Part shown: positions 2,439 through 62,161 of the stretch, piece by piece
How the letters are laid out: each line of letters begins with the position of its first letter
How positions within the stretch are numbered: position 1 is the first letter of the stretch
Origin: Odiellus spinosus
Taxonomy: Eukaryota > Arthropoda > Arachnida > Opiliones > Phalangiidae
Direction of reading: 5' to 3'
Assembly: GCA_963920705.1 (NCBI GenBank)
Contig: OY987226.1
Location: forward strand, 8,496,501-8,560,500
Length of the DNA: 64,000 nt
Program-made: the position numbers and the translations under genes
The notes under the pieces: generated by a model
Seen by the model: the letters and a program-made list of their open reading frames with translations, nothing else
Databases searched by the model: none
Told to the model about the DNA's origin: nothing

Positions 2439-4286
2439 AGTATGCCACGATACTGTATTTCAGGGCCCGTGATAAAAGATGCGCCCACATAAGATCACAT
2501 GGGGTTTGGGTGCCCTGCTCACTGGAGATTGGAGTATAAGCAGACGATGTCGTCAAATAGCTTTTTGTCATACTTATGTTTTATTATTGTACTATAGTCA
2601 AACATGACAGACTTTAAAATTATCCTTTAATTTATTTATTACTTATTAGTTATCAATCGTATATATAAATTACTGAAATTTCTCTTATTTTGTTCCTGAT
2701 TTAAATGATTTTTAAAGGAGTCTTGAGATACGGTGAACAGTACAAGAATTGAGCGTGGCAACGAACGATTTCTTACTCACACTCTTACATAAAAACAAAA
2801 AACTCAAGCTGACTTTGCAATGAAGATTAACTTCGCTTGTACATTCTAGCGTACTTGACCGACAGACAGACAATTTTAATAACCAAGGAATAGTATTACT
2901 TTTTATACGCAGGTCGTATTATTTGACCTTGACCTAGTTAAAGGCTTCACTTCATAAATGTGCACTAAAGCATGTGTAAAATTAAATCAATAGTTTCACT
3001 CAATCAACGCATTGCCGGTTTCAAGACAATTTAATTAATCGACGATAATTATGTAAATTTTTCAAACGAATTAATAAATAAAGATTGACTTTGAACTCTT
3101 CCAAGATCATAATCGAATAAGAAGAATGAAATATATTCACTAGACTAAACATTTTTCATCAAAATTTACGGCACGACCTTGGAAACATCCATTCCTTATT
3201 CTCATTGGATAATTTTCTTGCGCCATAAACCAATAGACTACCTTTTAACCCGGTAAAGTTCATTCTAAAGGCATAATTTACAGTCACCTATTTCGTTAAC
3301 GATTTGAATGGGTTTCCTCTGCTGGTTCATAAAGTTTTTAACCTATTAAAGTTTAACAACCGGAAAAAGAAATATACGTTGGGACGAAGGATAATTTTGA
3401 ATTCTTTTTTTCTTGACTACTGTATCCGATTGCCAGGGATTATGATCATTCGGGTACCGGGAGATAAAAAAAAATTAAACTCCCGTTTTTATTTCTGAAA
3501 CTATAAAGCAATGTAGAGAAAAAATTGCTCAAGGAGAAACGAGACTCATAGAAGTTTCATTAGTTCTCTTCAATGCAAAAAAAATTAAAAACAAGATCAA
3601 CTAGACAACATATAAACCCAAGATCTTTTCAAACCTTGTATCCAAGATCAGTTTACGCGGGGTTTTGAATGTAGTTTCGAAAATATCCACGCTACTTCAG
3701 CGCCGGCCAAGGCGAACTTGAAGGATTAGCGCTACAATAGAATTTGTCTGTTTTTCAAATTTTTATCAAACTTAGATTTAGGCAAAATTGGTTATTTCTT
3801 ACTAATTTCCTAGACTTTATATTCAACCTCTTCGATGTTTTTAACTAAATTAGCTTAACAATTTTTTTAAGGTGATGAAAACCACGAAATTACGAATTTC
3901 TAGTAAAGTAACAAATTTTATAATTCAATTTACATTACTGAAATGCCATTCAGAATATGATAAAATGTTACTTTAGTCAGTTTTAAGCTGCAGCGATTGT
4001 ATATGCATATATTACATTTCTTCTATATTTACTCAGAACAGTAACCCTAAAATCCCAAATATCTCAGAGTCTATAACTTTAAAAAAGTATTAAGGTAGAC
4101 GGTAAAATATATTATTTTTCACGGGCAGATTTATCTCATCGTCCATTGCCTATTACGCCACGCTACATTGATGCCCCGTTATTGGTCCTAGCTACCTAAA
4201 CACCGGATCGTTACAGTCCTCCCACTTTTTCTCTATTCCACTTTTATCCGCGTCGTTTTTTTAATGGCTATTTTTCTACTAGGGCA

Positions 4287-4298
4287 GCGCCATCTAGG
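4287..4298 (-). promoter_or_regulatory. CTCF-like core motif
   Basis: The minus strand reads CCTAGATGGCGC. The ten-base portion TAGATGGCGC fits YAGRKGGCRS at every position, although the upstream CCAS part is not complete. It lies in a GC-richer island. Confidence 0.25.
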
Positions 4299-4696
4299 AT
4301 AAGAAAAGGAACCCATAAAAATGATCGTTCTTTTTCTACCATCCATCCGTCCGTCCCTTACTACTTCGTTCGGTCTTCGGGCCTCACTCGGACGTTGATC
4401 GGGTCGAAGGGGGTCATCCGTTGTAGTCCGAGCGTTTCCGAAATTACCAAACTGTCTGTCGAAGTGAGGTAAAGAAGAAGAGGGGGTCGAGCCGAACCGA
4501 GCGATGGTGGACAAACTCGACTTGACAGCGACGAAGAGTTAAAAGCTTATAGGGACGATAGCTTCTTTCTTCTGCCAATCGAGATTGTCTAAAGGTTTAT
4601 ATTGGAGAAGGGGGATGGATGGATGGGAGAAAATGCGATCTTATATTAAAGAGGGATCGCGTCGAGTAAGAAGGACCCATTAATTTTCATTACAGT

Positions 4697-4710
4697 CCAC
4701 CAGATGTCGC
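4697..4710 (+). promoter_or_regulatory. CTCF-like core motif
   Basis: The plus strand reads CCACCAGATGTCGC, matching CCASYAGRKGGCRS except for T in place of one core G. It is opposite in orientation to the match about 400 bp upstream. Confidence 0.25.
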
Positions 4711-5309
4711 TAATGAGCCATACACCGGTTCCACCTCCTATCCCGTCTCTTCTTTCGCTTTCCTCTTTTACAGTACGTTCGTGGTATGTGAAGCAACGCG
4801 AACAAAGGTGGATGGCTTAAATTTCTCCGTATTTTCCTCATATACACTTGCCTCAAATAAGTACCATTCAAATATTCCTTTACACCCCTCAACTATGGTC
4901 AAGCTACTTAGGCGAGACCGTTCGACTAGCTCGATTCCATATCGTGATGTTGGGGGAAAGCGCGTTAGAAAGTTGATAACTTTGTAAACGTTGGCTTGAG
5001 TATGGTGGATGAAGTAAGTACGTTTTGATAATTTGAGGCAACGAAGCGACGATATGATGAAAGAAAAACAACTACGTCGCGAGTTAACTGTATTTAGCCA
5101 GCCTCATGGCTAGTAAGTGTTAGTTGAAATGTCTTGGATAAGCTAGAGTCTGTCCAGTTTATTTTAGTCAATGAATTAATACTGGGAAATGATATATAGG
5201 GAGCACCGTATGAAACTTTTCAAGTGTTAACTCGCTAACTGCGAATGGGAGGCATATTGGGTTTGGTTTAAATCCTGCTACATTTTACCCCCATTATTTT
5301 ACGAGAATA

Positions 5310-5319
5310 CCGCCATCTA
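5310..5319 (-). promoter_or_regulatory. CTCF-like core motif (short)
   Basis: The minus strand reads TAGATGGCGG, a full match to the ten-base YAGRKGGCRS part of the CTCF consensus. The flanking CCAS bases are absent. Confidence 0.2.
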
Positions 5320-8300
5320 TGTTCAAAACCAACGACGCTAGCCCGTCATCAACCAATTTTTGATGGCGATTCCTTTTATACGGTTTTAACAGACCGTTCC
5401 CGCCCGCTAACTCTCTGAAGTCTAAAAGGGCCCCCAGTTGATGGTGGGTATGAGAATGTTAATTCGAAGAGTTAATTAAAACCTAGATGGGGAGGGAAAC
5501 ATTGTTTTGGACTTTTCTCTTCCGACGCCGGTGTCGCGATAACCGCCCACTACGAAGCAGAATTATCTGACAATGTATGCCAACCTCCTTTTATATCGTG
5601 ATAGGACTACCTCCCCCCCCCCCCCGCCCCCGCCAATTTATGCTTGTATATTCCTTGTTTTGCACGGATGTATCTCGATAACGAATTATTTGAATGGGTT
5701 TTACCATCACAAACCAGACGAGGGTAAAATATTCTTTGCGATTGGTGTCAGGAAAATTTTCCAAATGAAGAACAAATATTAATTAAATTTTACCAATTTT
5801 GCGGTCGAATTAAAAAGGCTTTGTATTTTACGATATTAACAGGTGATAAAGTTCAAATAATGAAATTAAAATAAAGATAAAATTCCGTGCTTTTAAGACA
5901 TTTAGAGGAGCCTGAACGAAAAATAAGAGAACCCTATTTTGTTGATTTAACAATAAATGTTTGCGAGACTGTGGTTCCTTTTTGTTACGGTTCAATTTCG
6001 GGTTTTTATGGGAAATGAAGCGACCTTTTCTGGGAATTTGTATATTATTGGCATATAGCTGACTAAGAAGACTATGTTTCATCCACTTGAATTTCTCTAA
6101 TTATTTACTCCAGGTCATATTTTTGCTTAGTAATTAGAAACCCAAAAATTAGGTTATGGAATGTTATACTCTTAATTCAGGCTCCCTTTTATCAAAACGC
6201 GGTAATGAACGAAGGATTAACGAAAATAACACTGAAAATTAAATATTTAAATGAATCTCCAACTAACTTTCTTACTAGATATGGGTAACCAAATTGTCTT
6301 TAATTAAATTCGATTATTTTCCAAGAATATAGTTAACCATTTTTCTTTTAATATAAACTGGTGTGATCACTGGCCCAGAAAGCAATCTAAAGTAATATAA
6401 CTATGGCCAAAATCAGGTTGAAATCTCACCATTTAGAAAGCTAAGCCTTTCAATTTTATTATGAGAAATTTCAAGATTCCGACTGCAGAAGATCTTAACT
6501 TCCTACGCATCTTAGGTCTTTAATAAATGAAATTATATTGAGGCTAAATTAGAACAGCCCGATAACTCGTATAGATCTATACAGTGAATTAAGGCCAAAG
6601 CTGGCGTAGCATTGGGATACAATACGGAATGAAGCGCAACCGATTCAAATGCCAGTTTTACTATAAAATGAGTATTAGCATTACCGTTTTAGCCAAACCA
6701 CCCTTTTCATTTTAAACGCGCTTCCCACTCGAGACTAGAAATTAGGAGTCGAACCTGATGCCTGATGGGGGTACTCATGGACTATTACCTTAAAAGCGCA
6801 CTAGACCATTTCCTAACTAAATCGTTCCTATAAATAGTAGAGAAAAGCGCCGGAAAAGGTCCAGTATGCGGCCGTGCAAGCTAGGTTTTAATACTGATTG
6901 CAAAGGCAGACGTCACGCGGAAACAGGAGGCGGTAACTAGCCCATTAAATGTAATTTCGATTTTCAGTCATAATAGAGACGCAGAGTTCCCAAACCGAAT
7001 ACCCGAATATCGAGAAACGGATATATATATATGAAGGCAATTTCTAATTAAACTATATACGCTTCGCTGATTATGAAACCGATACCTTAACGTAGAACTA
7101 AATATACGCCCAATTACCCAAAGTAAACCGCAGGAATAAAAACCAAAAGTTTTAGGGGCAATCAAACCACACCTAAAGATGGAATCACTTCCAAATTTCG
7201 GTTTACTCAATCATAGGATATTAAATATATACCAACTTATTTTGGTAGCGAGTACAAACCTAACCTGCCGTTATCTCCATGATTTATTTACCTGAAGATA
7301 AGGTAGCCTTTACCTACGCGTTTAATGCCAAATTCAAGTGAAACTTTCTAGAAGTTATTTGATGACTTGGGGATAGCTACTGCAGGGAAGTGGTCTCTTT
7401 GTATTTGCTGAAACTTCAAACGAACTTTTGCTGTAGTATAGGAACCAGTTAGAAATCGAAATATCATCTATACCCGCTATTTCTGATAACGACTACTTTG
7501 CTCATAAATATTATTGATATTGTTATTTCACGGTATTAAAAGGATTATTTATAAAAATATGTTTTGAGAGGAAGAATGAAGGCTCCGATACTTCAAGGCT
7601 CCAATTCCTGAACGTGTAATTTCTAACTCGCTGTACACTAGTATTTAATCTGCGTTTTCGTTAAATTAACTTCCGTTTCGGAAGTTTTGAGGAAGAGAAT
7701 AAGAAAATGATTGGACCGTAAAAATTGTGAAAATATCTTCAAGTCAGTATATCGGTGTGTTAATTTATAGCGGCGGAAATTTGTTGCTACACGAAAATAT
7801 ACCACTTCCTTTATATAAATGGAATAGTGAAAGTACTTTTACCGAACCAATTTCCATATGTATACTTATTAACTATACAAGATTTCGATTTTATAAGCAT
7901 GACATTTCACAAGTTTGTCATACCCTAACAACAACCACGAAACATGCTATCCAATTTTGTAAAGGGTTCGCATTCGCAACGAAAATAAAAAAAGAGGCGA
8001 AGACGAGTCCTATCGGCTTACACTTTTATCCAAACTTCATATATATACGCGCGCAAAATCCCACGAACCCCAAAAATCGATCAGTTATCGAATAAAAAAT
8101 ATATTCCTCCTTGATGAAAGAAACGGTGAACTAAGGGAGGAAAGAAGGTCTAAAGGGGCGTCAATTACGCCCTCGCGTGGGCAGAAAAGGATGAAAGGAC
8201 TACTGGAGGGGGCATTATCCCCATGAACACAGCCTTCGTCTCCTTTCCCACTCTTCAGAGGTTCCCGATGGACCAGTAACAAAACGCAACAAGGAGACCA

Positions 8301-37579: not shown

Positions 37580-37876
37580 GATTCCGAGTTAATCTGGCAT
37601 TAGGATCATCCGGCTCCGTCAGATGAGATCTCTCCCAGAAGAATGTCCATCGTTTGTTGTTACATCTGCCATCATCGGCTGCGATCCAACGGGGACTTGT
37701 ACGACGAAAGGAACGAATCGAACGGCGCAAGTTGTTACCGCGACGACGTTGGTTCGGTTCCGGCGGCGGCGACATCGGCCTCGGTTCAATGTCGTCGTCG
37801 TAGAACGTGTCACGCCTCTCGCCGTGAACGGGTCGTTCGAAACGCGTCGCCCAGAACCTCAAATAGCGCGGCCTTC

Positions 37877-39973
37877 ATGTGTTTGGCGGTCGTGGTCTTG
37901 GCCCTCTTGGGTACCCACGGAGTCTCGGGGTTCCCTTGTCACCCAAAGTGTAATTGTATTTGGAGAAATGGCAAGAAATCGGCCACTTGTCACGATCTCT
38001 CTCTGACCAAAGTACCAAACGACTTTGACCGTGAACTCCAAGTATTGGATTTGAAAGGGAACAAGTTTCCTTACTTGCCGCGTCTCACGTTTGTCGACGC
38101 CCATTTAACAAACTTACAGAAACTATTTATGCCCTCGTGCAGTCTTGAGCAGGTGGACGAAATGGCCTTCGAGCGGTTAACAAACATGATAGAGATAGAT
38201 TTCTCTCAAAACTACCTTAACACGGTCCCTACGGCGTCGTTCCGCCACTTAAAATCACTCAGGACGCTGACCCTCAGTCGAAATAAGATCACCTTCCTGG
38301 GTCAACAGGCCTTTGCCGATTTAAAAAATTTAGTGTCGTTGGAACTGAGCTTTTGCCAGATCGATTCGGTAGCCGTCGGGGCTTTCGAGGGTCTGGACAA
38401 ACTGTCGGTCTTGAAAATAGAAGGCAATCGTTTGGAAACCTTATCGGGCAAAGCCGTTCTCCCGCTCAAATCCCTCAATGATATCGCCCTCGATCTCAAT
38501 CCGTGGCGTTGCGACTGCGAACTCAGGCCCCTGAGACAGTGGCTCGAAATAAGAAACATTCCCTACGTTTCCCCTACCTGCGAGAAACCGGCCAGGTTAA
38601 CGCGTAAATTATGGAAAGACGTGATACCCGAAGAGTTCGCGTGCCCGCCCGCGTTTCTCAACACCTCTAGCGCCTTTCACGTTTACGAAGGAACCAACGT
38701 CACGCTGGAGTGCAAGACGACGGGAGACCCTTTACCGACCATACAGTGGTTCTGGAGGGACCGCGTCTTGGGAAATTTATCCGAGGGAATATCGCCGCGT
38801 CAAATCTTTACGGTGGTAGAAAGAGGCGACAGAGACAAGTACTCGTCACTGACGGTAACTTCGGTACAGGAACCCAACGGGGGAACATATTCTTGCAAAG
38901 CTGAAAACGTGGCGGCGAAAGTGGCCAAGAATTTCACCGTACACGTTTCCCGTAAACCAGTAACGGAAACCGAAGTCAAGCGACCCGGACCCCCTATCCC
39001 GGGCCACGACGAGAACGCCCAAGAAGTGAAAGAGTTTGAAGCGGGCGGCGTTTCTGGGGGAACCTCGGACAGTAACAAAGACACGTTGATCGGGTTAATA
39101 GTTGGGGTTGTCGGAGGGGCTCTTCTGGTATTGATCATCTTCGCCGTTGTTCTGTTCGTCTGCCGTCGACGCAGGCGAGACAGAAGACAAAGAGCGGAAG
39201 CCAGCGCGGCCGGAGGACCGCTAAATAAACTAGCTCCCATGGACAAAGTCCCCGATTGCGTGGACGAAGCCGATACCAAACTACTATCACCAAGGCCTCA
39301 AAACGTTAGCGTTTTACCGCCAGCTTACCTACACCAGCACGAAATGGAACCATTAGAACCACTGATGGATCGAAATTCATTATCGCCTCACGTCTGGGTT
39401 GTCAAGGACCACGTACCGCCGGAATGGCCGCCGAGAAGGAGTCCCATTCCAGTACCAATGCCCGTGGCTCCTACCTCGAACGACCCTGAAGCCAATGCCA
39501 GGTTACATAACGAGTTAGCGGACACTTTGCGGCGCAAGGGAGATAGGAGAGTGATAAACGAACGCGAACGCGGCGACGGCAGCTCAGAAATGGAAGCGAT
39601 GGAAGACCCGGACGGCTTAAAAGCCCCTCCGGCGCCTTTCGAAACGCTACGCGTACGCGAACTTCAAGATAGAGCGGCTTCGGGCGACGAACCGGACTTG
39701 CTACTCTTGGAACGTCCCAAGAGGACGCAACCCATGGACCATCACCACCATCCTCAATATCAATCCTCGACCCTAGACCGACGAGGTCACTCCCCGGCCT
39801 TGTCGCAAGCCGGATCGGGACGACCGGATTGGGGTGACGCGTACGACCACCCTTCCGCCTATTTCCGACCTGTTCAGTCCACCCCTGTGCCCAATCCTAT
39901 CTTACACGTTCCCGTTTTACAAACAGTTAAAGACGCCGATGATGGAGGCGGATCCGACGGTACGGAAGTATGA
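37877..39973 (+). CDS. kek: Kekkon-family LRR-Ig transmembrane protein
   Basis: Predicted type I membrane protein, 698 residues from the chosen start. Residues 1-18 (MCLAVVVLALLGTHGVSG) form a signal peptide. An LRRNT cap with four cysteines follows (about 19-50), then six 24-residue leucine-rich repeats (about 53-197). An LRRCT cap (NPWRCDC...C...C, about 207-257) precedes one C2-type Ig domain (about 265-357; cysteines 279 and 340, DxGxYxC-like NGGTYSC), which has four N-glycosylation sequons in or beside it. The membrane helix is at about 403-429, followed by an RRRRRDRR stop-transfer. The tail of about 269 residues is proline-rich and ends GTEV, a class I PDZ ligand. This order defines the Kekkon family, whose Drosophila members modulate EGFR, BMP and neurotrophin-like signalling. 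I cannot assign the paralogue. The coding exon is uninterrupted. An in-frame ATG at 37643 would add 78 arginine-rich residues before the signal peptide, so the ATG at 37877 is preferred. Confidence 0.93.
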   Translation: MCLAVVVLALLGTHGVSGFPCHPKCNCIWRNGKKSATCHDLSLTKVPNDFDRELQVLDLKGNKFPYLPRLTFVDAHLTNLQKLFMPSCSLEQVDEMAFERLTNMIEIDFSQNYLNTVPTASFRHLKSLRTLTLSRNKITFLGQQAFADLKNLVSLELSFCQIDSVAVGAFEGLDKLSVLKIEGNRLETLSGKAVLPLKSLNDIALDLNPWRCDCELRPLRQWLEIRNIPYVSPTCEKPARLTRKLWKDVIPEEFACPPAFLNTSSAFHVYEGTNVTLECKTTGDPLPTIQWFWRDRVLGNLSEGISPRQIFTVVERGDRDKYSSLTVTSVQEPNGGTYSCKAENVAAKVAKNFTVHVSRKPVTETEVKRPGPPIPGHDENAQEVKEFEAGGVSGGTSDSNKDTLIGLIVGVVGGALLVLIIFAVVLFVCRRRRRDRRQRAEASAAGGPLNKLAPMDKVPDCVDEADTKLLSPRPQNVSVLPPAYLHQHEMEPLEPLMDRNSLSPHVWVVKDHVPPEWPPRRSPIPVPMPVAPTSNDPEANARLHNELADTLRRKGDRRVINERERGDGSSEMEAMEDPDGLKAPPAPFETLRVRELQDRAASGDEPDLLLLERPKRTQPMDHHHHPQYQSSTLDRRGHSPALSQAGSGRPDWGDAYDHPSAYFRPVQSTPVPNPILHVPVLQTVKDADDGGGSDGTEV

Positions 39974-56937: not shown

Positions 56938-57797
56938 TCTTCGAAGATCTGCGGTTCAAACCTTTATACAGAAACAATGTTGGAAGATTTACTGTTTGAA
57001 CATATCTACAGCTAACAGCCACAATATACTACGGTTTGAAAATTTCTACAGGTGTAATATATTCGACATCTACGGTTCGAACATTCCAAAATGTACTACA
57101 GTTCGAACATTTCTACAGGTAACAGGTACAATATATTCGGCGATCTACGGTTCAAACATTTCTACAGGTGCCATATATTCGAAAATGTACGGTTCGAACA
57201 TTTAAACAGGTGCAAAATTCGAAGATCTACGATTCAAACACTAAGATGTACTGTTCGAACATTTCTACAGGTAACAGGCGCAATATATTCGACGATCTAC
57301 GGTTCGAAAACTTCTACACGTGCAATATATTCGACAATCTACGGTTCGAACATTTCTACAGGCGCAATATTCGAAGATCTACGATTCGAACATTCTAAGA
57401 TCTACTGTTCGAACATTTTTACAGGTAACAGGCGCAATATATTCGACGATCTACGGTTCGAAAACTTCTGCAGGTGCAATATATTCGACAATCTACGGTT
57501 CGAACATTTCTACAGGCGCAATATTCGAAGATCTACGATTCGAACATTCTAAGATCTACTGTTCGAACATTTCTACAGGTAACAGGCACAATATATTCGA
57601 CGATCTAGGGTTCAATCATTTCTACAGTTTCAATATATTCGACGATCTATGGTTCAATCATTTCTACAGTTGCAATATATTCGACGGTCTACGGTTCGAA
57701 CATTTGTACAGGCGCAATATTCGAAGATGAACGCCAAATTCGAATATCAACGAATCAAATATTTATAGAGACGTAATATTCGAATATCTGCGAAGTT
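56938..57797 (+). repeat. Minisatellite with a 154 bp higher-order period
   Basis: The array is built from short units of the form GGTTCGAACATTTCTACAGG, then GCAATATATTCGACGATCTAC, in lengths of about 49, 42, 40 and 23 bp. These four together make a 154 bp block that repeats almost exactly at 57252, 57406 and 57560. Units outside this core are more diverged. 154 is not a multiple of three, so the long open frames running through the array change phase at each block. They encode only repeats of NISTG/FEHFYR-like words, which I treat as non-coding. Confidence 0.85.
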
Positions 57798-59822: not shown

Positions 59823-59827
59823 ATATT

Positions 59828-60170
59828 AGTCGAGGAGACAAAGCCCTATTTTGGGGTGAACCGTCGGATTCGGTATGACTAAAGTTTTTTGATTGATTCC
59901 GGTATTTTCAAGGGTGCTGATCACGAATCTGCCGGGTGCCAGAGCGAGAAAGTTGAGCATTTTAAGTTATGACGTCATCAAGATGACCACTGGTCACCTA
60001 ACACCAAACGAGTCTTATCTCCTTAAATAATGGTCATATAATAACGAGCAGTATATCATTTAATAGATAATGAGGCGAGGAACAATATAAAATTATAAGA
60101 TTTTCCATGTCTGCCGTCAGGGGGCGCTGTTACGAGTGTAAACTTACCTTTCTGTTATTTTTACCCACAT
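59828..60170 (+). repeat. Transposon terminal inverted repeat, left
   Basis: 343 bp, complementary to 61823-62156. It contains TGACGTCA (CRE-type palindrome), GACCACTGGTC (palindromic), and a CTCF-like motif at 60114-60127 (CCGTCAGGGGGCGC). It has about 10 bp more than its partner just inside the terminal 14 bases. Confidence 0.9.
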
Positions 60171-60448
60171 ATTGGCTTGTTATACCTAATTTAGAAGCAT
60201 ATCTTTTACTGTTTAGAAATAATTAAAATGTTTTAAATTAACTATTGATTATAGATGCCCAAAGATGACTTTTTTGTGTGATTCAAGCTTGTGCGCCATT
60301 AGATTTCTATGAGCGAGCTAGCTTGAATCTCAAGAATGAACATGGGCATTGAGCTGCTTTGAGCATGAATTTAGAAGCTTTTCAAAGACAAATGCACTCG
60401 CAATAAGAAAAAAGTACTTCAGTTAATAGAAATGAATTGAAAAAATAT

Positions 60449-61790
60449 TTATTCGTCATCACCTTCATCGTCTTCAGATTCTAAAATAGGGATTTTGATG
60501 GAGTTGGGATTTTTGCAGTTATCACCGCCTTCACATTTGCAGTAAGAAGTACACGATAACCCTGATGATTTACAGGTGCATCGTTTTCCTTCACACGCGT
60601 TTTTAGATTGGCAAGAGCAAGCAACAACTTTTAGTAATCCTTCAGGGGCTATAGCAGATGTTCCAAAACTCGGCACAGGTACTTCCTGATCTAACTGCCA
60701 CCCGAAATTTCTAATTTCCAATTTTGGAGGTCCAAGCTTGTCAGCGGCACACCAAATCATTACTTGAAGTCGAGCACGCTTAATATGTTGAATAGCAGCT
60801 TCATTGGTTGGTGGAAGAGATTTAATCTTTGGTGGGTCCTTCCTTCGGCTAAAAATTTCATACCTTAATGTGCTCAAGTCATGATTATCTTTGTTACCGC
60901 CGTATAAACTAATCATGAAAGATGTCCCCGCTTTCATGTAAGTTTCTCCTAGGGCTTCGTGGTCACACATAGAGGAGAGATCAATGTTGGTTTTTAAAAA
61001 CGATTTTAAGGCACTGACTTTGCCTTTTCCGAAAGGATAAGAAACAGAATCACATCCAGTCAAGGCATGAAAAGGCAAAATCGACCCAGCTCTATCTCCT
61101 AGCTCCTAGATTTGAAGCTGTTTTATTTATATCAATTATTCTTCCATCAAACTTCTTCATTGAAACTGTTGAACTTATTTTGTATTTCCAAACAAAGTAG
61201 ATTAGAAGGAGAAAAATATCTGTATCGTCGGCTGTTACTCGAATATGAGTTCTTCCTTCGGAATGGAGTTTAAAGAGATAGCTAATAATTGTCACGTCAG
61301 CCTCTTCGTGTTGAAACAAACATTTCTCCTCCCCAATAAGATGGAGATTAGTTTCTAAGTTAGAACTGCAGAGAGCTTTGATTAGTTCACGTTTATTATC
61401 ATCACTTTTCATTATCATATCTATGGGTGGAAGAACTGTCTCCTTTGTCAAAATTACTTGCTTTATAGACACATTTCCAGAGCGTCGACTTCTTTCATGA
61501 GATTTAATCGACTGTTTCTGATATTTATCGAAAATAACAAAAGTTTCGTGACTACTTTTCACGTAGCCACATAACGTAGAAGCGAAGTCCGTAACAGTTT
61601 CGAACAAAAAACTCGTAAAATCCACAGACAATAAAAACGCGTTTGAGCCAAGCCACTTCGGAATGTGAGTCTTCTGAATATAGCGAGGAACACGCGTCGA
61701 TGACTCATGAGTCATCGGCGGGTGTTTCCACGCTATGATAGTGACATCTACTGTTGCAACCTTACACAAGTTTATATTTATAATCAGCAA
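60449..61790 (-). pseudogene. Transposon-borne FEN1/XPG-like nuclease with CXC cluster, frameshifted
   Basis: The minus-strand frame has two pieces. The first (to 61092) contains VIFDKY then KSHERSRR, HEEAD, and ADDTD. These spaced acidic motifs parallel the FEN1/XPG nucleases: the VFDG aspartate, the GEAEA glutamates, and the D-x-D pair. The second piece (from 61078) opens with ALTGCD, comparable to the FEN1 LLGSD aspartate, followed by a glycine/lysine stretch. Next comes a nine-cysteine cluster (CSC...C...CTC...C...CKC...C, about residues 154-188) resembling tesmin/TSO1 CXC domains, and an acidic tail. CTCCTAG in tandem at 61096-61109 (7 bp duplication) shifts the frame and creates the stop at 61092. 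The first ATG is at 61715; no ATG precedes it, so the N-terminus is missing or spliced. The AATAAA over the stop could serve polyadenylation. The family resemblance is from memory of motif patterns. Confidence 0.7.
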
Positions 61791-61822
61791 ATTAAATGCT
61801 TTTAAATGAGGTATTACAATCC

Positions 61823-62156
61823 TTTGTGTGTAAAAATAACCGAAGGGTAAGTTTACACTCGTAACAGCGCCCCCTGGCGGCAGACCTGGAAAATCTTATA
61901 ATTTTATATTGTTCCTCGCCTCATTATCTATTAAATGATATACTGCTCGTTATTATATGACCATTATTTAAGGAGATATGACTCGTTTGGTGTTAGGTGA
62001 CCAGTGGTCATCTTGATGACGTCATAACTTAAAATGCTCAACTTTCTCGCTCTGGCACCCGGCAGATTCGTGATCAGCACCCTCGAAAATACCGGAATCA
62101 ATCAAAAAACCTTAGTCAAACCGAATCCGACGGTTCACCTTATTGTCTCCTCGACT
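61823..62156 (-). repeat. Transposon terminal inverted repeat, right
   Basis: 334 bp, the inverted partner of 59828-60170. It carries the CTCF-like sequence CCGCCAGGGGGCGC on the minus strand at 61867-61880, matching 13 of 14 consensus positions. The minus-strand coding frame of the element is open back into this repeat as far as a stop at 61896-61898, without an ATG in the repeat. Confidence 0.9.
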
Positions 62157-62161
62157 ATATT

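Follow-up and report, generated by a model that had tools for sequence, protein, structure and literature searches.

What moves a DNA transposon whose only recognisable coding region resembles a FEN1/XPG-type nuclease? The question arises from a 64-kb window of contig OY987226.1 of the arachnid Odiellus spinosus (assembly GCA_963920705.1, positions 8,496,501 to 8,560,500; "the window" denotes this whole stretch), in which a 2.33-kb unit with long terminal inverted repeats (TIRs) encodes the remnant of such a nuclease followed by a CXC-like cysteine cluster. A preliminary description of the window proposed either a transposase family built on a PIN/FEN fold or an accessory nuclease left behind in a deleted derivative of a larger element. 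Searching the 443-Mb genome (286 contigs), we found the second proposal to be right, with the qualification that the leftover nuclease is itself broken, its first aspartate deleted and its frame shifted. The unit is very probably a non-autonomous internal-deletion derivative of an Academ-kind, nuclease-carrying (AcademX-like) DNA transposon. It fits a known kind of transposon and not a new transposase class, and the nuclease alone is not the mobilising enzyme, its role beside a DDE transposase being a predicted one.

Full-length relatives of the window element

When the left end of the window element was used to query the genome, 20 matches were obtained. Among them were the two ends of L009, a copy of 5.56 kb, and those of a further copy, L010, at about 90% identity. 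A stretch of 3246 bp of L009 (positions 2716-5961) is missing from the window copy at a junction between window positions 61597 and 61598; the 2.3-kb unit is thus not the whole element but a product of internal deletion. An open frame of 1133 amino acids in L009 (P0003) encodes, in this order, a DDE-type region, the nuclease and the CXC-like tail, and its last third corresponds to the frames of the window element. Looking for a DDE gene in full-length relatives was one of the checks proposed in the preliminary description, which had named a conventional transposase as evidence against a nuclease-based class. The outcome went that way, and the idea of a PIN/FEN-based transposase does not hold: in the relatives, one polypeptide contains both the nuclease and a distinct DDE-type region. 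Upstream of P0003, L009 has further frames with cysteine motifs, recognised by eye; because this part is split over several frames, the N-terminus of L009 appears to be broken or interrupted.

At the protein level, the genome yielded at least 67 matches, a lower bound obtained by scoring 41 of 354 candidates. In a diverged family (L028 type, 31% identity), five listed copies have one unbroken frame of 1464 amino acids with the same DDE-XPG-CXC layout. Two L028-type copies, 99.97% identical over 5.72 kb, reside at different sites, each with its own 3-bp duplication. Every unbroken long frame examined (L028 type, L043 and L044) contains both the DDE-type region and the nuclease. The upstream region of the full-length relatives has a conserved D/D/GxxH/E series and, on the strength of these acids and a low-confidence structural model, is a predicted DDE transposase.

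A broken derivative that moved in trans

The motifs VIFD...KSHERSRR, HEEAD, ADDTD and ALTGCD, noted previously in FEN1/XPG order and followed by a cysteine cluster, were all found on the minus strand of the window element. The coding region, correctly placed on that strand, proved to consist not of a single frame but of two overlapping ones split by a 7-bp tandem duplication: frame 1 (61092..61895, 267 amino acids stop to stop) and its continuation in another frame, frame 2 (60449..61105, 218 amino acids), both on the minus strand. Below the junction at 61597, frame 1 matches P0003 residues ~752 to 927, including the PIN/XPG acids D777 to D880, and frame 2 matches residues 914/917-1133, with ALTGCD (the last XPG acid), the C-terminal region and the CXC-like cysteine cluster. 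The deletion takes out P0003 residues up to ~753, and with them every DDE acid and the first aspartate of the nuclease, D739. The window copy accordingly has no complete nuclease active site, D739 being deleted and the frame broken.

The duplication that breaks the remaining frame, near window position 61095 (61095..61112), is present in all four short copies and absent from both full-length-type copies with a matchable stretch, L009 and L014; its pattern found no match in the more diverged L010. These four short copies are 99.3-99.9% identical and occupy separate sites with different flanks. Since the same frameshift occurs in 4/4 copies at different sites, the frame was broken before the short form spread, and the short form multiplied with protein made elsewhere. 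The 2.3-kb form, which no longer has a transposase or a whole nuclease and whose four copies have a frameshift in common, therefore moved in trans.

The nuclease and its CXC-like tail

In the full-length relatives, a PIN/FEN fold with an acidic active site is indicated by profile, predicted fold and conserved acids: the nuclease family profile matches Exo1 at E 3e-4, and the model of the nuclease region is closest to Exo1/FEN1/XPG. The original reading of the motifs as a FEN1/XPG-type nuclease is supported on each of these counts. The Exo1 match came from the family profile only, a single-sequence search of the PDB with the nuclease frame returning nothing; single proteins had no match above the cut-offs of Pfam and NCBIfam and no family in PHROGs, and no relative was confirmed in a single scan of viral contigs. 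In the tail, the eight cysteine columns checked between residues 1078 and 1112, plus N1114, are invariant in non-gap rows. The proposed CXC domain thus stands as a conserved cysteine pattern but not as a formal Pfam assignment, the E-values of 0.057 (MSL2-CXC) and 0.37 (TCR) both falling short of the curated cut-offs.

Between L009 and L010, the ratio of nonsynonymous to synonymous substitution rates (dN/dS) is 0.39 in the nuclease, and 0.44 (residues 321-675) and 0.14 (a 108-codon stretch) in the transposase; young pairs hold too few changes to inform this ratio. Because the values are similar in the two parts, they suggest that both have been kept working. In diverged families, the nuclease is 25-32% identical to that of L009, with the order DDE-XPG-CXC unchanged and the catalytic acids kept. 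The similar dN/dS values, together with a layout and acids kept across families, therefore point to a long-standing working part. The alternative that the nuclease-plus-CXC part is captured host cargo, with no part in movement, gains something from the apparent exchangeability of this part, which in some Academ elements (AcademH) is replaced by a helicase according to PMC10045372 and PMC3627910, but we consider it very unlikely in view of this conservation.

Ends and target sites

The window element extends over positions 59827..62157, delimited by its TAG...CTA TIR ends and by comparison with three sister copies of the same structure elsewhere. Its TIRs, each of about 380 bp, lie at 59827..60215 (plus strand, starting TAGTCGAGGAGACAA) and 61776..62157 (minus strand). 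Between the two arms, an ungapped core of 315 nt (59855-60169 with 61825-62139) is paired at 97%, and a gapped alignment over the whole length of the arms has 356 of 377 aligned bases identical with 17 gap columns, which is far above chance expectation; the long-repeat unit of the preliminary description is real. The 5-bp ATATT duplication reported with it is wrong. The repeats begin one base further out, and the target-site duplication (TSD) is a 3-bp TAT at 59824..59826 and 62158..62160, ATATT being TAT plus, per side, one terminal element base and one chance-matching flanking base. We rejected the 5-bp duplication on comparison of six copies, as it fails in L009, where a 3-bp GTA fits; the other members of the window family have TTT (L010), TAG (L011), TAT (L012) and TAC (L013). 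TTA and TAG flank the two L028-type copies looked at among the five listed, and 3-bp TSDs occur in 7/7 copies checked, of eight found, in the L042-type family described below. Altogether, a 3-bp TSD and TIRs beginning 5'-TAG were seen in 15/15 complete elements checked from three families (six of the window family, two L028-type, seven L042-type), with L014 and L015, which have one end only, excluded from the count.

One left end of the window family stands alone: L015 (C1:6979202) is 450 bp long and about 91% identical to L009, and a search of 9.5 kb at this locus, allowing up to two mismatches, found no partner end. A 43-bp piece with 93% identity to the terminal repeat of the window element occurs at six places, namely L055, L056 and four others, and by eye L055 and L056 are alike around it, which would fit a position within some other repeat.

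A second family of short elements

L042 (C280:374510-377361) and L069-L072 belong to a second short-element family with TIRs of about 460 bp (TAGTCCATGAGCCAG) in which the XPG-CXC region is kept. A genome search with these TIRs gave 8 elements, and a profile search detected no DDE core in the five examined whole (L042, L069-L072). L042 itself has an unbroken frame of 576 amino acids, and several other copies are frameshifted. The two families are suggestive of two independent cases of keeping the nuclease-CXC end; we claim no selection, because nuclease similarity was what led to L042 and because several copies carry frameshifts.

One reading of such retention is that the 2.3-kb form persists because the truncated nuclease-CXC protein that it encodes regulates the full enzyme or competes with it, much as the KP derivative does in the P element system. 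That two unrelated derivative families keep the same C-terminal part, one of them with the unbroken L042 frame, speaks for this idea. We nevertheless give it very little chance of being correct, given that the window-family frame was broken before its spread, that frameshifts recur among the L042-type copies, and that a family found via the nuclease is a biased sample.

Copies of 7.2 kb in the L042-type family were considered as its full-length form and rejected, the one examined whole, L069, being a short form with an inserted non-LTR (long terminal repeat) retrotransposon. The insertion (L069 793-5131, contig C45) has an 852-amino-acid frame and was named by eye from its reverse transcriptase motifs. 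A second L042-type element of about this size is located at C1:6100413-6107599 and is flanked by a duplication of its own, CTA, so that a loaded element may have been mobile together with the retrotransposon inside it.

Relation to known transposons and nucleases

The Academ superfamily reportedly goes back to Kapitonov and Jurka in 2010. The nuclease of its AcademX elements is presumably of the XPG kind; our search of the literature, which was not exhaustive, found no description of an XPG nuclease in Academ. In PMC9587614, Academ is counted among the superfamilies with a DDD/E transposase. TSDs of 3 or 4 bp for AcademX and of 9 or 10 bp for AcademH, linked to the encoded nuclease and helicase, are given in PMC10045372 (citing Kojima 2020), and curated bivalve Academ elements average 5565 bp in PMC10294476. 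By these descriptions, the elements found here share with AcademX an encoded nuclease, membership of a DDE superfamily, the TSD length (3 bp here) and an element length of ~5.5-5.7 kb, and differ from it in none of the features tested. With AcademH they share the superfamily and the presence of an accessory DNA-processing enzyme, but AcademH has a helicase and 9-10 bp TSDs where these elements have a nuclease and 3 bp.

The predicted nuclease resembles the Exo1/FEN1/XPG 5' nucleases in profile match, predicted fold and acids but, unlike them, shares a polypeptide with a transposase and a CXC-like tail. For the upstream region, the best structural matches of the model are to the P-element and hAT (Hermes) transposases, which have an RNase H-like core with a large helical insertion. 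P and hAT elements produce 8-bp TSDs, in contrast to the 3 bp in 15/15 elements here, and are not known to have an XPG nuclease.

Several observations weigh against the assignment as we have made it. The AcademX filing is strong on features but provisional as to phylogeny. No unbroken full-length gene was found in the window's own family (L009, L010, L014): the N-terminal part of L009 is split over frames, stops and frameshifts interrupt L010, and the match of L014 to the full-length copy covers just the first 3011 bp of the latter. The transposase model is of low confidence (mean predicted local distance difference test score, pLDDT, 59), and plain Foldseek gave no PDB match for it at E <= 0.001; P-element and Hermes transposases are the best rows of VIA-align, which is a re-look at Foldseek's own top 1000, with high root-mean-square deviations. 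A profile of the region compared with the PDB found no convincing relative (two rows, E 0.7 and 0.87), the match to DUF6589 in Pfam is weak (best E 0.0059, 3/19 rows), and any link between that family and Academ is putative.

Other features of the window

In a large open frame at window positions 37604-39973, leucine-rich repeats and an immunoglobulin (Ig) domain score above the Pfam cut-offs; the product of this frame resembles the insect kekkon proteins. A tandem array with a 154-bp period and 4.4 copies spans 57029-57704, with overlapping rows of a 42-bp period.

A possible role for the nuclease

That the FEN1/XPG-like nuclease itself mobilises the element, as a transposase class on the PIN fold, is largely refuted and hardly credible any longer: it is the sole recognisable coding region in the window copy and in the five L042-type copies examined whole, but the unbroken long frames examined all have a DDE-type region that is modelled like DDE transposases, the window copy has no first aspartate, and the four short copies are frameshifted alike yet inserted at different sites with their own duplications.

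In the internal-deletion reading, the DDE region would make the transferred-strand cuts and join the ends to a target staggered by 3 bp, while the CXC-like tail and the N-terminal cysteine motifs would bind DNA. The XPG-like part would remove a 5' end or flap, a trimming that might serve either as the second, non-transferred-strand cut at excision or as clean-up of gaps after insertion. The more specific version, in which the non-transferred strand is cut at each end by the XPG-like nuclease, leaving cleavage and joining of the transferred strand to the DDE region, we put forward tentatively, by analogy, and consider rather unlikely. The analogy is with TnsA-TnsB of Tn7, where a DDE enzyme and a second, unrelated nuclease likewise occur in one element; TnsA is a separate protein with a restriction-enzyme-like fold, so the likeness is functional only. 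If this version were true, these transposons would divide the labour as TnsA and TnsB do, but in a eukaryote, within one polypeptide and on the basis of a PIN/FEN fold.

With the claimed new transposase class removed, the question becomes why some DDE transposons join a flap-type nuclease to the transposase in one polypeptide. The five listed copies with the same unbroken frame, together with non-autonomous partners whose ends are known, make the role of the nuclease in excision and integration directly testable.
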